From Tridacna crocea (Eukaryota; Mollusca; Bivalvia; Cardiida; Cardiidae): a DNA stretch of 64,000 nucleotides. Positions within the stretch are counted from its first letter, which is position 1; each line of letters opens with the position of its first letter. The stretch covers positions 42,856,427-42,920,426 of the forward strand of contig OX031065.1 in the NCBI GenBank assembly GCA_943736015.1, written 5' to 3'. The notes beneath the pieces were generated by a model. It saw nothing but the letters and a program-made list of their open reading frames with translations, was not told the DNA's origin and made no database searches. A program made the position numbers and the translations under genes. Shown in pieces: positions 2,234-53,330 of the stretch.

Positions 2234-2688
2234 ATATAGAGGATATTTGTTTTTTTTCGGTGAAAGATCGAAATTTATTTTATCGAGTGGACACCATCGG
2301 TAATATTTTCATGAGTGGCGCAGCATATTACCGATGGTGTTCACGAGATGAAATAAATTTCGATCTTTCACCGAAAAAAAACATTTATTCCATTTATTTC
2401 ATGCTTTTAACCTTTCCTGGGAAGAGCTTTATCAAAATCCAGTACAGTTCTTTTCCGTCATTCCCCGTGGCGTACCCCTCCCGCATAGCAACGCATTACA
2501 ATATTTCGTCAAGCGCGAGAAATATAAGGTGAATGACGTCACTTTTCCCATCTGGTTGTCAGGCACGCGCAATTTACATAGGCAACAAGAACGTGAAAAT
2601 CGGTATTTTCACTGGTGGTACCAGTGTAAGATCGAAAAATATTCTCACTGCTATTTCTCGATATCCTACCGGAAAGCATGAAATATTG
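2234..2688 (-). mobile_element. EHP element
   Basis: Full element in reverse orientation. The hairpin comes first (2243-2385, arms around TCGGTGAAAGATCGAAATTT, with a deletion at the loop). The middle module follows with GGCGTACCCCTCCCGCATAG, and the end is CTATTTCTCGATATCCTACC plus GGAAAGCATGAAAT. Two short ORFs over it come from the repeat. Superfamily is uncertain, as I see no clear target-site duplication. Confidence 0.85.
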
Positions 2689-3151: not shown

Positions 3152-3910
3152 TGTGAAGCCCGTTTGACATGCACATGTATCTGAAAAAAAAAACACCGCA
3201 GTTTGACAGAAACAAGCTTCCGATTTGTTTATTAAGGTAAACAAAAGGTCAACAACAAAGCGGCGGTGTGACACCTTCATTGCCATGAAAAAATAAATCC
3301 AGATTAACACGGAAGTTTAGTTACTTTTTGGACATTTTGGACCCATTAAGACCAGCCTGCATAGTAATGAGGTATAATAATGATATCATTTTAACAATGA
3401 ATATTTCAGCTGCTAATTATGATATTGATTATCACAATGACGAAGTTAAAATAATTTGGTTAACCATATTTACTGTTGTAGACATTTTGTCTTATACTGA
3501 CAGTGTTTGAATCAAGATGAAAACCGCCCGCTATTAAATTTCAAACAACGAAAACAAAAATTATCCTTTTTTTTTTTCTTTGTCTGTTGTCGCTTTCATT
3601 CGAAAGTTACTTTCCCCGCTAAACAAATAACAAATTAGTTTTTATCACATAAATACGTAATTCTTCACTGTAATACAATAAGTTTCACACAAACAAACGG
3701 TGCTGTATTTTGCCGAAGGTCCGTAATAGTACTTCTCAGTTCTAAAACAATGTTGGTCAACATTTCGCTGCGAAATTAATTCTAAAATTTATGATTTTGA
3801 CAAAGCTACGAGCTTTTTCGTCTTTACAATTCAAAGAAAAACATCACGCTAGTTATGCGATCTACTCTTGAGGCATTATTCTTCCGTAACAGGAGCAAAT
3901 CAGCTGCATG
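3152..3910. other. No recognised feature
   Basis: AT-rich. ORFs of about 60 codons show no domain. The bases just before 3911 abut the AGG element that follows. Confidence 0.5.
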
Positions 3911-4453
3911 TTAAAGGTGGGAATTTAGAATTTTCACATCACACCAAATTAAAAAATATATATATCATTGAAATTTATATGAAAGAACAGTACAAATCAT
4001 CAATAATTAAGAATCATAAAATTACAAAAAAAAAATTGATGGTATTCCCTTAAAAGGCTACGTAGCTTCTTAAGCTATTTTTAGATTTCACGCTAAACTC
4101 ATTAAAGCATTTGGGGAATGTCAAGTGACTGGCACGTGACTGATAACGCTTAAATTCCATTACATAACAAACATGTAATAATCATTTTCCATAATGTCTT
4201 CTTCGGACAGATGTTTGAAACTTCGTCGGTGTTTTCCTGTATTTAAATGAGAGAATTGGTAATCTAAAAATAGAATGTGTCTCCCGTTGGTGTCAACCTG
4301 GTGTATAATAAATCTCTAATTTCTCGTGTTATCAGATTGTTTTTGACTACTGGGGTTTTATGAACGCAAATTAAAAGGCTATGGGAGTATAAGGATGATT
4401 TCTTTTGGCATTTTTGTAAAATTTCGTCCCAAAATCTGAAGGGCCACCTTTAA
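3911..4453 (+). mobile_element. AGG element, most complete copy
   Basis: Begins TTAAAGGTGG and ends CCACCTTTAA, a 10-bp inverted terminus that contains TTAA at each edge. Two further copies lie at 31732-32279 and 54813-55348, colinear over ~540 bp (shared landmarks TTAGAATTTTCACAT, AGGCTACGTAGC, CATTTGGGGAATG or variants, CGTCCCAAAATCTGA). No ORF of note, so non-autonomous. Whether TTAA is a target duplication or part of the TIR is unclear. Confidence 0.8.
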
Positions 4454-4468
4454 CACTTATTCTGCTGA

Positions 4469-4703
4469 TTAACGCTTTGCCAAACAATTCCTGGTTTTTA
4501 CGACCCTGAGATAAAAGCGTTTTGAAAACATTGTGGGAAAAGGAGAAAATGCTGGTAACCAGCATTTTCTCATTTTTCCACAATGTTTTAATGCCCTGCT
4601 GGAAACAATTTTCAATTTTTGGGTTACTCTAATTATGTTGTGTGCAAGTGCTTTCAATTTGGACCAGTCTAAAATGTTGTCCTTTGTTAAAGAGTTATGT
4701 TAA
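4469..4703 (+). mobile_element. TAP2 element
   Basis: Starts TTAACGCTTTGCCAAACAAT with the TAP2 short flank CCTGGTTTTTACGACCCTGA. The core at 4521-4588 has lost part of its pairing (TCATTTTTCC in the right arm). The right end is TAAAGAGTTATGTTAA, with the terminal site mutated. Confidence 0.8.
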
Positions 4704-4914
4704 ATAAAAAATTCAACCCGATAGTAAAAATACAAATTTTGCCATTTCAGTTATTTATTTTAAGGAAAACAATATCTTCTTATCGGACAGTGTAGATACA
4801 AGATCAGACTGCACGTTCTGTACTCTCTGATCTTGATCTTCACTTTCCACAAAAGCTCACTGTCTTCACTGTCCGTAAAAGATCAGTGAGTTGCATAAAG
4901 CAGCCTGAGGGTTA
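4704..4914 (-). mobile_element. TAP4 element
   Basis: Directly abuts the preceding TAP2. Contains TTATCGGACAGTGTAGATAC, AGATCAGACTGCACGTTCTG and TCTGATCTTGATC. The segment CACTGTCC(G/A)-AAAAGATCA is duplicated near 4840-4892. Ends CAGCCTGAGGGTTA. Confidence 0.6.
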
Positions 4915-5002
4915 TTGTCAATATACATGTAGTTGTAAACCTATATTTAATGAAATATGATCCGTAGATTTATGAATAGTTGCAAACTACAAGTCTTTTG
5001 CG

Positions 5003-5066
5003 GAGGGCATATTTCCCAGATCAGACTGCACATTCTGTGCAATCTGGTCATAGATTTACACCGTCC
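5003..5066. repeat. TAP4 hairpin fragment
   Basis: Only the core is left: AGATCAGACTGCACATTCTG, TGCAATCTGGTC and ACACCGTCCAC. No termini. Confidence 0.45.
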
Positions 5067-5483
5067 ACAATTCGATACAGAACTATACACCAAAACCATA
5101 TTCAAATGCAGAGGGAAACAAAAATAAATTCCCCAAAGAGAAAGAGTGTACTGTATTTATTTGGTAATAAAAGAGTTAAAAATGAAAGAGTTTTAAAAGA
5201 TGAGAAGTGCACTTATTTGCATGCGGAAGCTGAAATTTTAAATTCATCTTGCGTTGAATGATTTGCAAGAAAACACGGAAAGAAGGTATAATGAAAACGT
5301 GGCAAGTCCTCTTCCTTAGTCGAGAGCGTCAAGGGCCGATAAATCCAGTGACTAGTAGTTTGAATAACGATTTGGTTATAATTCTTGTCGAGATTTTGTG
5401 ACAGTTTTGGCAACGGGATTTTCGTATTACTGAATGGCGTTTCGACGCTGTTTTTTTTTTTGAAACACCGATATTCAAAACAG
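5067..5483. other. No recognised feature
   Basis: AT-rich with a T run near 5450. A 93-codon ORF that ends here starts inside the TAP4 fragment and has no domain. Confidence 0.5.
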
Positions 5484-5686
5484 GGCCTGTATTCACCAAC
5501 CGTTATTAAGAAAGTTCTTTGCCCTTTTCTCCAGAATTTTCTACATTTGTAAGAAACACAACTTCTGATTGGCTAAACCGAATGGTTTAGCCAATCAGAA
5601 GTTGTGTTTCTTACAAATGTAGAAAACCTTGGAGAATAAGACAAAGAATATTCTCAAGAACGGTAGGTGAAAGGTGAATACAGGCC
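5484..5686. mobile_element. FHP element, intact, 43-bp perfect hairpin
   Basis: Ends are GGCCTGTATTCACC and its inverse GGTGAATACAGGCC, so the whole 203 bp is one long inverted repeat. The central hairpin has perfect 43-nt arms (5537-5579 and 5584-5626) around the loop GAAT. Arm motif: CTTCTGATTGGCTAAACC. The outer arms differ by a few substitutions while the centre is perfect. An interrupted copy is at 14507-16472. Confidence 0.9.
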
Positions 5687-19275: not shown

Positions 19276-19696
19276 TTTTTGCCGCCAGTTCGAAGGGGTT
19301 ATACGGCTGGTTAGGAATTTAAAGTGCTAATTTTCTTTACATGTTAGTGGGGCAATTTGGAACGAACGCTGCCAGATTAGAATAATCAAGTTAGGGTGGC
19401 GCGAAACACCTGCAAAAATTCAGAGCCGATATGCTGGGTTCATTGAGTAAGCTCTCGCACTACAATTAATTCTAGAATAATTCGGCATACTCAGAAGAAA
19501 ACTGCAGCAGACGACCCTGCAAAAAAAAAACACACACACAGTGAACAATTATATGTGCCGTACTATGGAAAAAAGAGGGGGGCTTTAAAGGGATTCCACC
19601 CCTAACTCATCCGTAACACTCGTGTAACATCGACGTTTTCGTAAAGGCTATTCGGCCGATCTCGGTCCCTTCCGTCTTTTAATATGACAGTTAGAG
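19276..19696. other. No recognised feature
   Basis: Nothing recognised apart from a short A and CA-rich tract near 19520-19540. Confidence 0.5.
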
Positions 19697-21402: not shown

Positions 21403-21536
21403 AGGATATTTGTTTTTTACGGTGGAAGATCGAAATTTTTTTGATCGAGTGAACATCATCGGTAATATTTTTATTAATGGCGCAGCCGCTCGTGAAAATA
21501 TTACCGATTATGTCTACAAGATGAAATAAATTTCGT
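21403..21536 (-). repeat. Solo EHP hairpin
   Basis: AGAGGATATTTG, then one hairpin with arms around AAGATCGAAATTT and CATCGGTAATATTTTT. It lacks the rest of the element and joins a complete EHP at 21537. It may be a leftover hairpin end or the remnant of a reversed copy. Confidence 0.75.
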
Positions 21537-21984
21537 TATTTCATGCTTTCCGGTGGGATATCGAGAAATAGTAGTGAAAATATTTTTCGATCTTACACTG
21601 GCACCACCAGTGAAAATACCGATTTTCACGTTCTTGTTGCCTAGTTAAATTGCGCGTGCCTAACAACCAGATGGGAAATATGACGTCATATACCTTACAT
21701 TTCTCGCGCTTGACGTCACGTTGCTATGCGGGAGGGGTACGCCACGGGGAATGAGGGAAAAGAATTGTACTGAATTTTGATAAAGCTCCTCCCAGAAAGG
21801 GTTAAAAGCATAAAATAAATAGAATATTTGTTTTTTTCGGTGAAAGATCGAAATTTATTTCATCTCGTGAACACCATCGGTAATATTTTCACTCGTGGCT
21901 GCGCCACTCGTGAAAATATTACCGATGGTGTCCACTCGATGAAATAAATTTCGATCTTACACCGAAAAAAACAAATATCCTCTA
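21537..21984 (+). mobile_element. EHP element, complete
   Basis: Order: TTTCATGCTTTCCGGTGGGA, TATCGAGAAATAGTAGTG, CTGGCACCACCAGTGAAAAT, AACAACCAGATGGGAAATAT, GACGTCAT, GTACGCCACGGGG, GGGTTAAAAGC, then the long hairpin (~21833-21972, loop GGCTGCGCC) and AAATATCCTCTATA. Arms are almost perfect. Confidence 0.9.
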
Positions 21985-42962: not shown

Positions 42963-43400
42963 TTTATTTCATGCTTTCCGGTAGGATATCGAGAAATAGC
43001 AGTGAAAATATTTTTCGATCTTACACTGATACGACCAGTGAAAATACCGATTTTCACGTTCTTGTTGCCTAGGTAAATTGCGCGTGCCTAACAACCAGAT
43101 GGGAAATATGACGTCATATACCTTACATTTCTCGCGCTTGACGTAACGTTGCTATGCGGGAGGGGTACTCCACGGGGAATAACGGAAAAGAACTGTACTG
43201 AATTTTGATAAGGGTTAAAAGCATAAAATAAATAGAATATTTGTTTTTTTCGGTGAAAGATCGAAATTTATTTCATCGAGTGGACACCATCGGTAATATT
43301 TTCACGAGTGGCGCAGCCACGAGTGAAAATATTACCGATGGTGTCCACTCGATGAAATAAATTTCGATCTTACACCGAAAAAAACAAATATCCTCTATAT
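42963..43400 (+). mobile_element. EHP element, complete
   Basis: TTTCATGCTTTCCGGTAGGA at the left. Shortened middle (lacks the GCTCCTCCCAGAAA step). Then an almost perfect hairpin at about 43245-43386 with loop GGCGCAGCC. Ends AAATATCCTCTATA. Good reference copy. Confidence 0.92.
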
Positions 43401-44696
43401 ATACAATGAAAAAACCTATATGGGTAACGGTAAATCAAAACTCTTTGCTATCACATAAATTTTTCCGTCAAATGAAATGGCAAGGAGATTCAGAAAAGTC
43501 CTTTTGTTTTAATTTGTTTTCAACATATATTCACAAGCCCTCTTTTTCAAGTTGGTTAAAACTCAGGATAGTGAACTGGTCTTCGTTGCACAGGAACACT
43601 GCACAACTCTATAGACTTTGCTGTGCCAGGAGAGGCGATTTAACTACGTTATGTCTTTACTCTAAACTCGCCTTCTAACAGTACTTTCAGTACTTTGATT
43701 TGATTAGGGTAATAGTTGGTGTTTATTTTTAGTATCCTGGAAATACTTGTGTAAAACTAATAGCTCTTCAAATTAACCATATCACTGTTATGTTAAGTTT
43801 GATTGATGTCAGAGCTAACATTAGGATATTAACTTCTAATTGCAAATACCATTCAGACTGTAAACGTTAAAAACAAACCAAATGAAAATAATCGCATAAT
43901 CTGTGACAAAAAAAATACATAGGAAATAACCAAAACAATTAAATGGCAGCTTGTTTATTTTTATCCTCGCATAAACAGCAATTACACTAAAATTCTACGG
44001 AGTTTAAGATCACCCCAAGTGAGACTATACTAAACATTACGATTGTTTCCAATATACTTTTAATTTTAGAGGACCTGTTACATTAACATACATTTGTTGA
44101 CCAACACCACCAAACTTTTGTTTGAAGATGTTTGTTCATGTTTGTCCATATTGTGTCTGCAATACAACAAATCGAGCACACAAAGTCGGTGATGTTTGAA
44201 AATCGGGTGATGCATTCATCACATGCTAACATGACAATTTCTGACTGGTCAGTATATTTAAAAACACCATTTACCAACAAGAAAAGCAAACAAAAATAAA
44301 CATGTCCAAACACAATCAAACTCTGTTTTAGCAATGTTTGCCCATGTTTGCTGGTATAGAACAGCCAGACTGCAAAGTAGATCACTAAGATTTTGCCGTC
44401 GTCCATTATTGTCCTGAAAAAGATTACTTTATCATTGATTACATCCTGACCTGGCAAATTTGTAGATGAGGACACCTCAAATATACCTCAAATTATTAAG
44501 GTTTGATATACATGTATGAACGCAATTAATACATATAAATACATTTTTACTTAAGGAGATGGGGGCTCATATAGAAAAAAATCTGTACATGATTTACAAA
44601 AATAATTAGTTTGCAAGTCGGAAAAGGTCGTTGACTTGACAAGACGTATTACACGTTATAAGAATAGACATACGGCATTTGAGCAGTGCCGGACAG
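43401..44696. other. No recognised feature; weak 130-codon ORF on minus strand
   Basis: The minus-strand ORF 44083-44475 (130 codons, hydrophobic middle) has no recognised domain. Its bases contain imperfect repeats of ATGTTTG(T/C)(T/C)CATGTTTG, so it may be repeat DNA. It lies 260 bp from, and divergent to, the possible exon at 44736. Confidence 0.35.
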
Positions 44697-45155
44697 AATC
44701 ACGGCGGGGAATCACGAGACACAACAACAACAACAATGGCCGACATTTTAAGAAATTCCCCCACTTCAGGTAAGAAAATATTCAATAATTCCCTTAATAC
44801 GTGACCGATTGGAATTTGGTTTGAAGCAAAGAAGGCGGAAGGACTCCAGGGATGCTTGATGTGTTAGATCTTTTAAACAACACCTGATAAAAAAAGTTAT
44901 TGACGAGCAAACGAATTTTTACCCCGGATAACGTTCGCGTCAAAAATAAACAAAATGCACAAACAGGCCAGATTTCTTCTTTTACTGCTTATTGTGTTCT
45001 CTTATGCATAAAATGTGAAGAGTATGAATAAAAAGTGTTGTCACTATCACTACTTTTTTATTTGAATACGATTTTCTAGGTAAACAACGTTATTTTTTTA
45101 AAATGATGTAGTTCACGTCAGGAAATTTTTATGATAACGTTCACGTCATAAGTAG
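44697..45155 (+). repeat. Long inverted repeat, left arm
   Basis: Pairs with 47005-47379 over ~375 bp at roughly 80-85% by eye. Shared segments in order: CACGGCGGG-AATCACG, AACAACAATG-CCGACATTT, CCCACTTCAGGTAAGAAAAT, AGATCTTTTAAACAACACCT, ATTGACGAGCAAAC, GGATAACGTTC, TATGCATAAAATGTG, GATTTTCTAGGTAAA and two GTTCACGTCA motifs. This arm has ~82 bp extra at 44780-44861. Confidence 0.9.
44736..44769 (+). other. Possible first coding exon with splice donor
   Basis: ATG at 44736 after a (CAA)n leader (ACAACAACAACAACA), then 11 codons reading MADILRNSPTS and a split codon, followed by GTAAGAAAAT at 44770, a strong donor. In the other arm the copy reads ATGCCCGACATTTGA, a stop after four codons, but keeps the donor. 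No downstream exon identified. Inference only. Confidence 0.25.
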
Positions 45156-45166
45156 AATGTAGAATA

Positions 45167-45620
45167 TATTTATTTCGTGCTTTCCGGTAGGATATCGAGA
45201 AATAGTAGTGGATATATTTTTCGAGCTTACACTGGTACCACCAGTGAAAATACCGATTTTCACGTTCTTGTTGCATAGGTAAATTGCGCGTGCCTCACAA
45301 CCAGATGGAAATATTGTGTCATTTACCTTACATTTCTCGTTCTTGACGTAATATTGTAGTGCGTTGGGCTATGCTGGAGGGCTACGCCACGGGGAATAAC
45401 AGAAAAGAATTGTACTGGATTTTGATAAGGCTCCTCCCAAGAAAGGGTTAAAAGCATGAAATAAATACAATCTTTTTTTTAAATCGAAATTTATTTCATC
45501 TCGTGAATACTATCGGTAATATTTTCACTCGTGGCTTCACCACTCGTGAAAATATTACAGATAATGTCCAATCGATGAAATAAATTTCGATCTTTCACCG
45601 AAAAAAACAAATACCCTCTA
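45167..45620 (+). mobile_element. EHP element inside the inverted-repeat loop
   Basis: Starts TTATTTCGTGCTTTCCGGTA eleven bases from the left arm. Normal order, hairpin loop GGCTTCACC, left hairpin arm lacking the TCGGTGAAAG step. Ends AAATACCCTCTATAC. Confidence 0.9.
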
Positions 45621-46908
45621 TACATTTCATTATCTTAGTTGCGTCATGTTGTCTTGAATATCATGTTAATGCATGCTTAAAATTATGAAATTGTCTGATT
45701 TTAGCCATATTTAAAAGTGTTACGTGTTGTGTCTAGTTGTTTAAAGCATGTACAAAGTGTATTCTTATTTAGTACTGATTACTGATGGGATCCTACTAAA
45801 ATACGCCATGGACAATTTATACGCCATGGGAGTTTTTGCATGCCACAGCTGTTCCACAGCAGTGAAATAATATAGTAGAATGTATTGATATATGCATTTT
45901 ACATTACATACTAATGTTTCATCGATATATATTTTGCAAGACATTTGCCTTTGAAATTGTGATAAATAACAAAGGGAGACAACTCTTATGACATAAGTAT
46001 GAGATATGAAACTTTGCTCGCCCGAGCAATAGTATATCGATTAAAAAGGACAAAAATTTGTTATCATTGTGTAATATACCATAATTACTACGAAATTTGT
46101 CTCTTTTTACACACGAAGATCGGGAGACTACGTAGTTTTGGCTCGCCATGGCAGAATTTCTTCGCCAGAGCGTTCCAGCTAAAATACAACGAGTAAATTA
46201 CTATAAATACTTCTTTTATTGGTTATTTCTTACTACATGTTTAAATTTCAATAAGATTCACTTTGTATATTACAGGAAATTTGGAATTACAAATCAACCT
46301 GTTCTACGGGTGAAACAAGGGAATTAATACCGTATTTATTAACAGAACACACAAGATATTCTTAATGTGTATTCAACCACAGGAATTTGATATTCTATAA
46401 CCAAAATATATGATAAAAAAAATGATGAAAAAAAAAACTCCCCTATATAATATAAGCACAAGGAATGCAACGTCTCGATTGCTGGCGCTAGCAACCGACA
46501 GCCTTTTCCAACCAAAATCACCCACGAAACACACATTGATAATAATTTCCTTTAGCCTCGCGATATACAACACACAAATGTACCTGCGACATTCGGCTAT
46601 ACCTCTGTAGACAATTTTCCACAATATTTTCATAAGGATCGCCACTAAGGGAATTTGGAAAAGTGATTTTAGGGGTTTAATAGTCCAATCATTTTATTTT
46701 TCGATGGTTTAACAAACGAGAGTGGATTCTGCCTAAAAGTAAACCGAGCATTCTCCAATTTGCTCTCTCATGTCTAGCTCAGATGACCGAAATGTCTTTA
46801 TTTCTATATATAATGGTTAATAAATGCATATTAATTTGTATCTGGTTATCTACATAAATTCCGCATATTATATGATTCTGCAAATTAAACGGTATATTTG
46901 ATATTTGA

Positions 46909-46957
<49 letters not shown>

Positions 46958-47004
46958 TTCAAATTACACCAGTATTCATGATAGAACTATTTTGATATGA
47001 AAAG
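45621..47004. other. Loop of the long inverted repeat, unrecognised
   Basis: AT-rich. Contains TACGCCATGG twice (45804, 45829), a small palindrome TTTGCTCGCCCGAGCAAT near 46012 and a (CT)n tract. ORFs of 65-90 codons here have no domain. Confidence 0.45.
46912..46955 (+). repeat. (TC)n microsatellite
   Basis: About 22 uninterrupted TC units. Confidence 0.95.
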
Positions 47005-47379
47005 CTATTTATGACGTGAACGGTACCATAAAAAAAATCCTGACGTGAACGATATTATTTTCGAAAATAACGTTATTTACCTAGAAAATCATATTCTGCT
47101 TAAGAATATTGATAGTGACAAGACTTTTCATTCATGCTTTCCACATTTTATGCATACGGGAACACAATAAATGCACTAAAACAAGAAAAGTAGCATGTTT
47201 GTGTGTTTTATTAATTTTTGCCGTGAACGTTATCCAGGGTAAAAATTTGTTTGCTCGTCAATATCTTTTTTATCAGGTGTTGTTTAAAAGATCTAACAGA
47301 TTTTCTTACCTGAAGTGGGAGAATTTCGTCAAATGTCGGGCATTGTTGTTTGTGTCACGTGATTACCCGCCGTGAGAAT
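47005..47379 (-). repeat. Long inverted repeat, right arm
   Basis: Reverse partner of 44697-45155. Read on the minus strand it keeps CTTCAGGTAAGAAAATC and TCTTTTAAACAACACCTGAT but lacks the 82-bp insert. Outer ends fade at GAATGG on this side and GAATCA on the other. No target-site duplication seen. Confidence 0.9.
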
Positions 47380-47394
47380 GGATTATAACGCATT

Positions 47395-47830
47395 TCCGTG
47401 ATGCATTATACCGAGCAAATTACAATAGCATTATGAATCAATACATGGCACTCTAGTGCTTTGACATGCGGAAAATTATACATATAAAACACTACCGAAA
47501 TTTCGACCAATGGCTGCCTCTGCAAAACGCGCAGGTTGACATGCTTCAATACGTCATGCAGATGCTTCAACCCTTTATCCCATAAGGCATTTCTATGGCA
47601 TCTCTAGTTGACCCTAAATAACAGCAAGAATGAAGCCGTTTCTTATGTGTATATGGCACCTTTTGATAGCATAGAAAACATTGTGACAAAAGGTGAAATT
47701 GCTCGTCACGAGCAATTTCACCATTTGCCACAATATTTTCCAAAGGCTCCTACAAGCAATGCGTAGAAATGAGTATCTATGGAGTAAAGGATTAAATGCC
47801 CTTTCCACAAAGCACACCCTTTGTACATTG
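47395..47830 (-). mobile_element. GHP element interrupted by TAP3
   Basis: GGACCA-type middle is decayed. Hairpin remains: GCGCAGGTTGACATGC. The terminus CATGCAGATGCTTCAA is interrupted at 47567 and resumes ATGCCCTTTCCACAAAGCAC. Confidence 0.65.
47567..47795 (-). mobile_element. TAP3 element inside a GHP terminus
   Basis: Left site TCAA (47567-47570), right site TTAA (47792-47795). Core GCTCGTCACGAGC, arms with three mismatches. Sits at the same GHP terminal TTAA as the copy at 33958, but in the opposite GHP end. Confidence 0.92.
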
Positions 47831-47969
47831 TTTCTGACAGAAGCATTTCTTTATTGCTTCGGTAATGAAAAATAAAATACACGATTATAGGTCTGCCAAA
47901 ACGCGACGAGAGAAAAGATGTGGAAATAGCTCTTCCTATTTTATGTTCACCCTTAAATGTCTGAGCGTA

Positions 47970-48047
47970 ATTTTATTTTGTCGTCTGCATGCAGTGCTTT
48001 CAATTTGGACCAGCCTAAAATTTTGTCGTTACGTAGTAAAAAGTTAA
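47970..48047 (+). repeat. TAP long-flank fragment
   Basis: TTTTATTTTGTCGTCTGCAT, GCTTTCAATTTGGACCAGCC, TAAAATTTTGTCG and AAAAAGTTAA with TTAA at 48044-48047. The core and left half are missing. Confidence 0.75.
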
Positions 48048-48135
48048 TCGGCCAAAGGTATTTGTCTTTTAAGTTCGAAATACAAAAAAGAAAGCAAGTT
48101 ATGTACAGTTGTGTCATTTCAGAGGTGTTTAGATT

Positions 48136-48163
<28 letters not shown>
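48136..48163 (+). repeat. (CAA)n microsatellite
   Basis: Nine uninterrupted ACA units. Confidence 0.9.
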
Positions 48164-48166
<3 letters not shown>

Positions 48167-48189
48167 CTTCCCAGAAAAAAAGAATACTT

Positions 48190-48305
48190 CAGCGGACGGT
48201 GTAAATGAAGGATCAGTCTGCGCATTCTCAGCAGCCTGATTTTTTATCAACAGTCTCTTTCTATAATCATTGTTGAGATGCTTTGACGGCCTTGAGATTT
48301 CAAAA
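48190..48305. repeat. TAP4 degenerate copy
   Basis: CAGCGGACGGTGTAAATGAA, GGATCAGTCTGCGCATTCTC, AGCAGCCTGATTTTTTATC. Termini not found. Confidence 0.45.
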
Positions 48306-48563
48306 GTCCGACTTACAGCATTCATTTCATTTGTTTAGAAGGGTAAAGAGTTGGTTATCATAAATTTTCTTGCCATGAAACCCGAGTCGTCAAATGTTCA
48401 TTAAATGAAAATAATAAGGTAGACAAAACAAAAAATGAAGAGTTATCTAAAGAGATAATTGTAAATGCCTTTCACAATTAACCTTGATATTTGCAAAGAC
48501 GTAATTTCTATTGTTGTAATTATTCTCTTTCAATTATATGTAGTCTAGCAAAAATAAAAGTCA

Positions 48564-52870: not shown

Positions 52871-53330
52871 CATTTATTTCATGCTTTCCGGTAGGATATC
52901 GAAAAATAGCAGTGAAAATATTTTTCGATCTGAGACTGTTACCACTAGCGAAAATACCGTTTTTCACGTTCTTTTTGCCTAGGTAAATTGAGCCTGCCTA
53001 ACAACCAGATGGGAAATATGACGTCATATACCTTACATTTCTCGCGCTTGACGTAATGTTGCTGTGCAGAAGGGGTACGCCACGGGGAATAAGGGAAAAG
53101 AACTGTACCGAATTTTGATAAAGCTCCTCCAAGAAAGGGTTAAAAGCATGAAATAAATAGAATATTTGTTGTTTTTTTTTTCGGTGAAAGATCGAAATTT
53201 ATTTCATCTCGTGAACACCATCGGTAATATTTTCACTCGTCGCTGCGCTCGTCGTGAAAATATTACCGATGGTGTCCACTCGATGAAATAAATTTCGATC
53301 TTTCACCGAAAAAAGCAAATATCCTCTATA
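52871..53330 (+). mobile_element. EHP element, complete
   Basis: TTTATTTCATGCTTTCCGGT at left, all modules present, hairpin at about 53180-53311 with loop CGCTGCGCTC and near-perfect arms. Ends AAATATCCTCTATAT. Confidence 0.92.

Follow-up and report, generated by a model that had tools for sequence, protein, structure and literature searches.

Transib ends read CACWRTG and RAG/Transib targets are GC-rich, hAT ends usually start with YARNG, P-type elements duplicate 7–8 bp of their target, and Polintons duplicate 6 bp and carry AG ends. Transib/RAG-like (RAGL) elements of the CMCT group are described as having 5'-CAC ends and 5-bp target duplications, with CACTWMCAAACKTYKBB given as the end consensus of the protostome RAGL elements (PMC7204232), and 5-bp target duplications are also reported for hAT5, an animal group of the hAT elements (PMC12730594). 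In a survey of mollusc genomes, a single Transib element stands against counts of 44–105 for several other superfamilies of the rarer kind (PMC10294476), so that Transib would have a lower prior probability in a bivalve host. Long terminal inverted repeats (TIRs) together with palindromic short derivatives have been described for Foldback, Galileo and Tetris, and the TIRs of Galileo are internally repetitive. The element analysed here occupies positions 44700–47374 of the window, i.e. of the 64-kb stretch of DNA under analysis, and its family has the CAC ends and the 5-bp duplications in common with Transib/RAG-like elements (PMC7204232), the 5-bp duplications in common with hAT5 (PMC12730594), and the long TIRs and palindromic short derivatives in common with Foldback, Galileo and Tetris. 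It is almost certainly an internally deleted, non-autonomous cut-and-paste DNA transposon, the arms being its long TIRs.

The element starts with CACGGCGGGGAATCACG, and its right end is the slightly mutated reverse complement of this sequence. The sequence-only reading had placed an inverted repeat at 44697–47379, with arms of 459 and 375 bp and 80–85% identity; its coordinates were correct to within a few bases, and the paired inverted arms are real, measuring 457 and 370 bp and being 87% identical outside gaps (320 of 367 ungapped columns in a global alignment). The same alignment contained 93 gap columns, mostly belonging to one stretch of about 80 bp, which is present in the left arm and absent from the right arm of the window copy, while the right arms of other copies have kept it (L052 in part). 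In a BLAST search of the 64-kb window with the left arm, the main segment of the right arm was matched at E = 1.4e-87 and no third arm was found. The earlier statement that the arms have no family members elsewhere is correct within the window only; in the genome the family is dispersed. With up to 3 mismatches allowed, the window contained the terminal 26-mer twice, and none of 100 shuffles contained it. The family termini derived from the aligned copies are CACGGCGGGG...CCCCGCCGTG. All five exact occurrences of the motif GTTCRCGTCA in the window fall within the arms, where they are possible candidates for transposase-binding repeats. Directly outside the element, at 47674–47740, there is a second hairpin with 33-bp arms (91%).

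Table 1. Coordinates of the element, its parts and associated features (positions in the window, unless a contig is named).
Feature	Position	Strand	Remarks
Target site duplication, left copy AGAAT	44695–44699	+	
Left terminal inverted repeat	44700–45156	+	457 bp; among the 18 left arms of the tree
Terminal 26-mer, left	44700–44725	+	1 mismatch to the genome-wide CACGGCGGGGAATCACGTGACACAAC
Subterminal motif GTTCRCGTCA	44933–44942; starts at 45111, 45139	+	left arm
Nested dispersed repeat R1	45170–45620	+	451 bp, inside the element
R1, near-full-length copies in the window	45170–45620, 42964–43397, 52874–53328, 21536–21984, 2237–2685		
Hairpin inside R1	45483–45591	.	52-bp arms, 83%
Inner segment	46372–46613	+	followed in longer copies by an inverted duplicate of the same segment
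Internal deletion junction	46612–46615	.	L051 and L052 have ~1.24 kb more here
(TC)n microsatellite in the element	46912–46955	.	boundaries read from the sequence
Right terminal inverted repeat	47005–47374	-	370 bp
Subterminal motif GTTCRCGTCA	starts at 47012 and 47041	-	right arm
Terminal 26-mer, right	47349–47374	-	2 mismatches
Target site duplication, right copy AGAAT	47375–47379	+	
Facing polB pairs	C17:2166843-2178194, C2:20112352-20123647, C8:3361253-3372699, C4:964924-976370		coordinates only
Facing polB pairs	C5:16390250-16402881, C4:25067152-25078504, C11:22798300-22809101, C1:71029522-71041546		coordinates only

The CACGG...CCGTG ends of the window copy are directly abutted on both sides by a perfect 5-bp AGAAT, so the sequence-only reading was wrong in denying a target duplication. 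When the two flanks were joined and searched against the genome, the matches covered query positions 1–160 and 156–320, i.e. they overlapped by exactly these 5 bases. The same search revealed no empty site of the window copy in the assembly, since its flanks are nearly single-copy, the exceptions being four weak hits of some 60 bases, all to the right flank. The duplications were counted in 21 two-ended copies, comprising the window copy, 10 long copies and 10 short relatives of the MITE type; this set omits L058 and L060 as duplicates of L059, as well as the copies with no two usable ends (L052, L053, L054, L061, L065, L067, L068, L069). An exact 5-bp direct repeat abutted the ends in 14 of the 21, a 6-bp repeat was present in two (L062, L080), and no direct repeat was found in the remaining five (L055, L057, L064, L066, L076). 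Unoccupied counterparts were obtained with two of the 21 joined-flank queries, both lying within the window: the empty site of the MITE L071 at 19621–19663 (43 bases, 84%, gapless) and that of L063 at 1156–1305 (150 columns, 77%, with a 3-base gap within the target word). Junction-spanning matches of L063 were also present in L055, L058–L060 and L061. Defined and shared termini, a target duplication of 5 bp in two thirds of the copies (14/21) and the unoccupied targets of L071 and L063 characterise the family as one of TIR transposons.

A search with one arm had been proposed in the sequence-only reading as the way to tell a transposon, with many paired copies, from a duplication at one locus, and in the genome from which the window comes (1.05 Gb, 31 contigs) it gave the former result. 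At least 40 matches were obtained with one arm (40 of 1310 candidates scored), and 247 with the whole stretch. Both arms were present in 14 of the 20 stretches fetched (L051, L052, L055–L064, L066 and L070; some of the arms are incomplete), while the pieces read of the other six (L053, L054, L065, L067, L068, L069) contained one arm only. L064, at about 1.5 kb, was the shortest two-ended copy; L051 reached about 4 kb, and L056, L057 and L070 were larger still through nested insertions; in L070 an insertion of about 2.2 kb (3248–5489) is nested in one arm, with an overlap of about 6 bp of arm sequence at its edges. A 29-mer taken from the inner part of the long arm (up to 3 mismatches) had 84 forward and 92 reverse matches in the genome, 176 in total, against none for the reversed-pattern control. 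Among the 100 listed of these 176 sites, 16 pairs of neighbours lay within 20 kb of each other, 15 of them convergent and one divergent, and none of 10000 strand shuffles reached 15 convergent pairs. Convergent sites as far as 12–18.6 kb from each other lie around C1:64007187-64020700, C3:15957215-15969600, C3:56901926-56918230 and C6:36397419-36416450. Three of the 15 convergent pairs represent one duplicated insertion on C16, and the sole divergent pair (L068/L069) is an inverted segmental duplication with a common outer flank.

The three C16 copies (L058, L059 and L060, at 29.1, 31.3 and 33.0 Mb) are near-identical, have common flanks and are spaced by about 2 Mb; they are a segmental duplication of one insertion. 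Near-identical segmental duplicates of a single insertion are thus represented by L058–L060, L068/L069 and L030/L032, so that fewer of the insertions are independent, and the duplicates cluster more readily in the arm tree.

In the tree of 33 full-length arms, which keeps the segmental duplicates, the 18 left arms were separated from the 15 right arms by a single change (SH-aLRT 95), compared to a mean of 11.2 changes after shuffling, and none of 500 shuffles was as low. Arms with less than about 380 matched bases were omitted from the arm consensus, the tree and the codon-position test. According to this full-arm tree, the copies go back to a single element whose two ends differed slightly, and the existence of left and right clades is evidence against both a chance pairing and a local inverted duplication. 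The tree of the first ~250 arm columns together with the MITE halves left the two kinds of arms unseparated: 11 changes were needed for the left arms (shuffled mean 15.2; 6 of 500 as low) and 12 for the right arms (shuffled mean 13.3; 121 of 500 as low), showing that the left/right signal sits in the inner part of the arm. The end branches of the window arms were 0.042 and 0.047 changes per column, for which no absolute date is claimed.

The interior of the window copy contains the dispersed repeat R1, which has four further near-full-length copies and one 362-bp match in the window and is absent from the element copies L063, L029 and L040. The "EHP" reported between the arms in the sequence-only reading, a label left undefined there, is taken to be the hairpin at 45483–45591, which was indeed found in this place. 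The region 43500–48500 had no Rfam matches at the gathering score. Five large copies (L069, L043, L039, L042 and L040) have a common insertion junction between ...AATGTTTTCA and ATCAATCAATCC..., and the stretch inserted there leads, in L068/L069, into what remains of the reverse transcriptase of a decayed LINE. Among the five, L069, L040, L039 and L042 have left flanks that differ from each other, and the left end of L043 is unrecognisable. The common junction combined with differing flanks suggests that the element moved with a retrotransposon cargo.

The same ends delimit a much more abundant short form. The terminal 26-mer (up to 2 mismatches) occurred 1865 + 1856 times in the genome, and perfect 17-mer end pairs 438–467 bases apart were found at 850 places, with zero hits for the controls in both cases. 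Ten MITEs were hand-picked from the listed C1 pairs, all with ends that are perfect by selection and two of them of odd length. Eight of the ten measured 442–464 bp; of the two others, L076 (362 bp) is missing part of one half, and L077 (505 bp) contains an additional stretch. The MITEs are built from the arm's outer ~200 bp and its mirror image, and the folds predicted for three of the ten include 214–217 base pairs in 451–452 nt. The MITE halves clustered as a single clade (SH-aLRT 95) to which none of the long arms belonged. On the simplest reading, the MITE would be an internal-deletion derivative with two opposed ends, which was amplified on its own. Its hundreds of copies of about 450 bp, TIRs and target duplications are as in MITEs in general, from which it differs in being palindromic over almost its whole length. 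Overall, the family is ordinary in kind and well defined: non-autonomous, with long ends and a large offshoot of palindromic MITEs.

Of the ATG/GTG/TTG frames contained entirely in the window copy, the longest encodes 90 aa. A Pfam scan of 10 frames, chosen from those of at least 90 aa in 17 stretches, produced two real matches. One is a 104-aa frame at 155–466 of L065 with a helix-turn-helix of the transposase type (HTH_23 at 6.7e-6, above the cut-off; HTH_Tnp_IS630 below the cut-off), located on the left side of the matched inner part; the stretch in question does not show its left end, and the frame may belong to a nested or neighbouring element. The other is a reverse-transcriptase fragment in L068 (5.9e-6, below the cut-off). 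The matches to SWIM and DUF5499 were weak, scoring well below the respective cut-offs, and no viral domain was present in the 10 scanned frames of the read copies. The RAG1 profile PF12940 had no candidates in the genome, and neither had it in the control genomes. The hAT-dimer profile gave at least 104 matches (150 of 403 candidates scored), the type-B DNA polymerase (polB) profile PF03175 at least 158 (70 of 454 candidates scored) and the P-type profile PF21787 19 (all 26 candidates scored). None of the hAT and PF03175 matches listed and none of the 19 PF21787 matches was inside an interval between convergent arms, among the 100 arm sites listed of the 176. The best hAT match (C1:24751644) lies about 1.7 kb from a MITE and another one (C5:21903779) about 4 kb from an arm, although this proximity may be due to chance. 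Altogether, neither the scanned frames of the read copies nor the RAG1, hAT, polB and P-type profiles yielded a transposase that could be attributed to the family. This counts against the transposon reading, in which mobilisation would take place in trans, as do the five of 21 two-ended copies with no duplication.

A separate observation concerned the polB genes themselves: at eight loci (Table 1), two type-B DNA polymerase frames of 992–1558 aa face each other at a distance of about 10–12 kb, reminiscent of a virus-like or Polinton-like element with polB inside its long inverted repeats.

Apart from a transposon, two explanations of the paired arms had to be considered. An inverted duplication at one locus, possibly of a gene, with the arms as two copies of host sequence, could account for the length of the arms and for the short ATG-led frame followed by a splice-donor-like GTAAG in the left arm, and the sequence-only reading had called the arms gene-like. 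However, in 28 arms (those of L059, L060 and L069 omitted as duplicates) third-position rates were not clearly higher in any of the six frames, the largest contrast between codon positions being 0.085 versus 0.069 and 0.073 in a 45-aa frame, and only 8 of 45 arm deletions were a multiple of three, while 23 were of 1 bp; the gene-like character was not borne out by these data. An exon in the arm was likewise discarded as a candidate, as a stop follows the fourth codon of the ATG-led frame in the arm consensus, and there is no clear codon-position bias. The paired copies at many genome loci, the division of their arms into left and right clades, the 5-bp target duplications and the ~80 bp missing from the window right arm but retained in those of other copies all contradict an inverted duplication, which was rejected as having practically no probability. 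The same verdict applies to two unrelated copies of a dispersed repeat lying in opposite orientation by chance. The great abundance of the terminal 26-mer and the failure of the outer ~250 bp alone to part left from right arms might be quoted in its favour, but the separate clades of the 33 full-length arms, the inner sequence common to the copies, the 15 convergent among the 16 close neighbour pairs at the 100 listed sites and the duplication abutting the outer ends of both arms make it extremely improbable. Among the options offered by the sequence-only reading, the TIRs of a larger dead transposon was the right one: paired ends of one family are present at many loci, with defined termini and 5-bp target duplications, the left and right ends are distinct, and a palindromic MITE of about 450 bp has the same ends.

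As to the kind of transposon, CAC ends plus 5-bp duplications fit best, of the known groups, with either a Transib/RAG-like element of the CMCT group or hAT5, and it is reasonably probable that the ends belong to one of the two. In favour of hAT5, hAT genes are present in this genome, two of them near family members, but the listed hAT matches are all outside the convergent-arm intervals and the ends here start with CACGG instead of YARNG. As to a Transib/RAG-like element, the PF12940 search was empty, as were its controls, and the family end CACGGCGGGGAATC does not agree with CACTWMCAAACKTYKBB of the protostome RAGL elements beyond CAC; the GGCGGGG following CAC fits neither this consensus nor CACWRTG, the TIRs are long and the duplications look AT-rich. 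A foldback- or Galileo-like member of the P superfamily, moved by a P-type transposase, is very unlikely: the resemblance to Foldback, Galileo and Tetris, and with it the foldback-type option of the sequence-only reading, holds for shape only (long TIRs and near-palindromic, hairpin-forming short relatives), whereas the duplication is 5 bp here against 7–8 bp for P-type elements and no P-type gene was found in association with the family among the listed intervals. A Polinton or virus-like element with long TIRs was rejected as highly improbable, despite its long TIRs, the 12–18.6 kb separating some of the convergent arm sites and the frequency of polB genes in the genome, in view of the 5-bp duplication and CAC ends (against 6 bp and AG), the position of all listed polB matches outside the convergent-arm intervals, the absence of viral domains from the 10 scanned frames and the nested LINE remnant common to five large copies. 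It is also conceivable, but rather unlikely, that the elements with CACGGCGGGGAATCACG ends, arms of about 460 bp and AT-rich 5-bp duplications represent a DNA transposon lineage not described before. The string CACGGCGGGG had no transposon context in the 16 papers containing it, judging by titles and opening lines of abstracts; the literature on long TIRs, 5-bp target sites and mollusc transposons yielded, at the same depth, only ProtoRAG and a Salmonella island; and no name for the family was found in this literature, a scope distinct from Repbase and Dfam. If true, such a lineage might be distantly related to CMCT/Transib-RAG and distinguished by TIRs of unusual length; its transposase would escape the profiles used here, and it would be the source of a large MITE family in this genome.

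For the non-autonomous TIR transposon favoured here, the insertion can be envisaged as follows. A transposase supplied in trans would have recognised both arms and inserted the element as a unit, duplicating the 5-bp AGAAT. The enzyme would be of the DDE type and come from an autonomous relative, binding the ends perhaps at the GTTCRCGTCA repeats, and the window copy itself would presently be inactive.

In this way an odd inverted repeat can be attributed to a transposon family whose boundaries are known to the base, so that its masking, dating and annotation become feasible, and the family is large, with thousands of matching ends. Of more general interest is the question of which transposase yields 5-bp duplications on CACGG ends. 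Finally, since the MITEs fold as nearly perfect hairpins of 450 nt, they may plausibly give rise to small RNAs, inversions and assembly errors.
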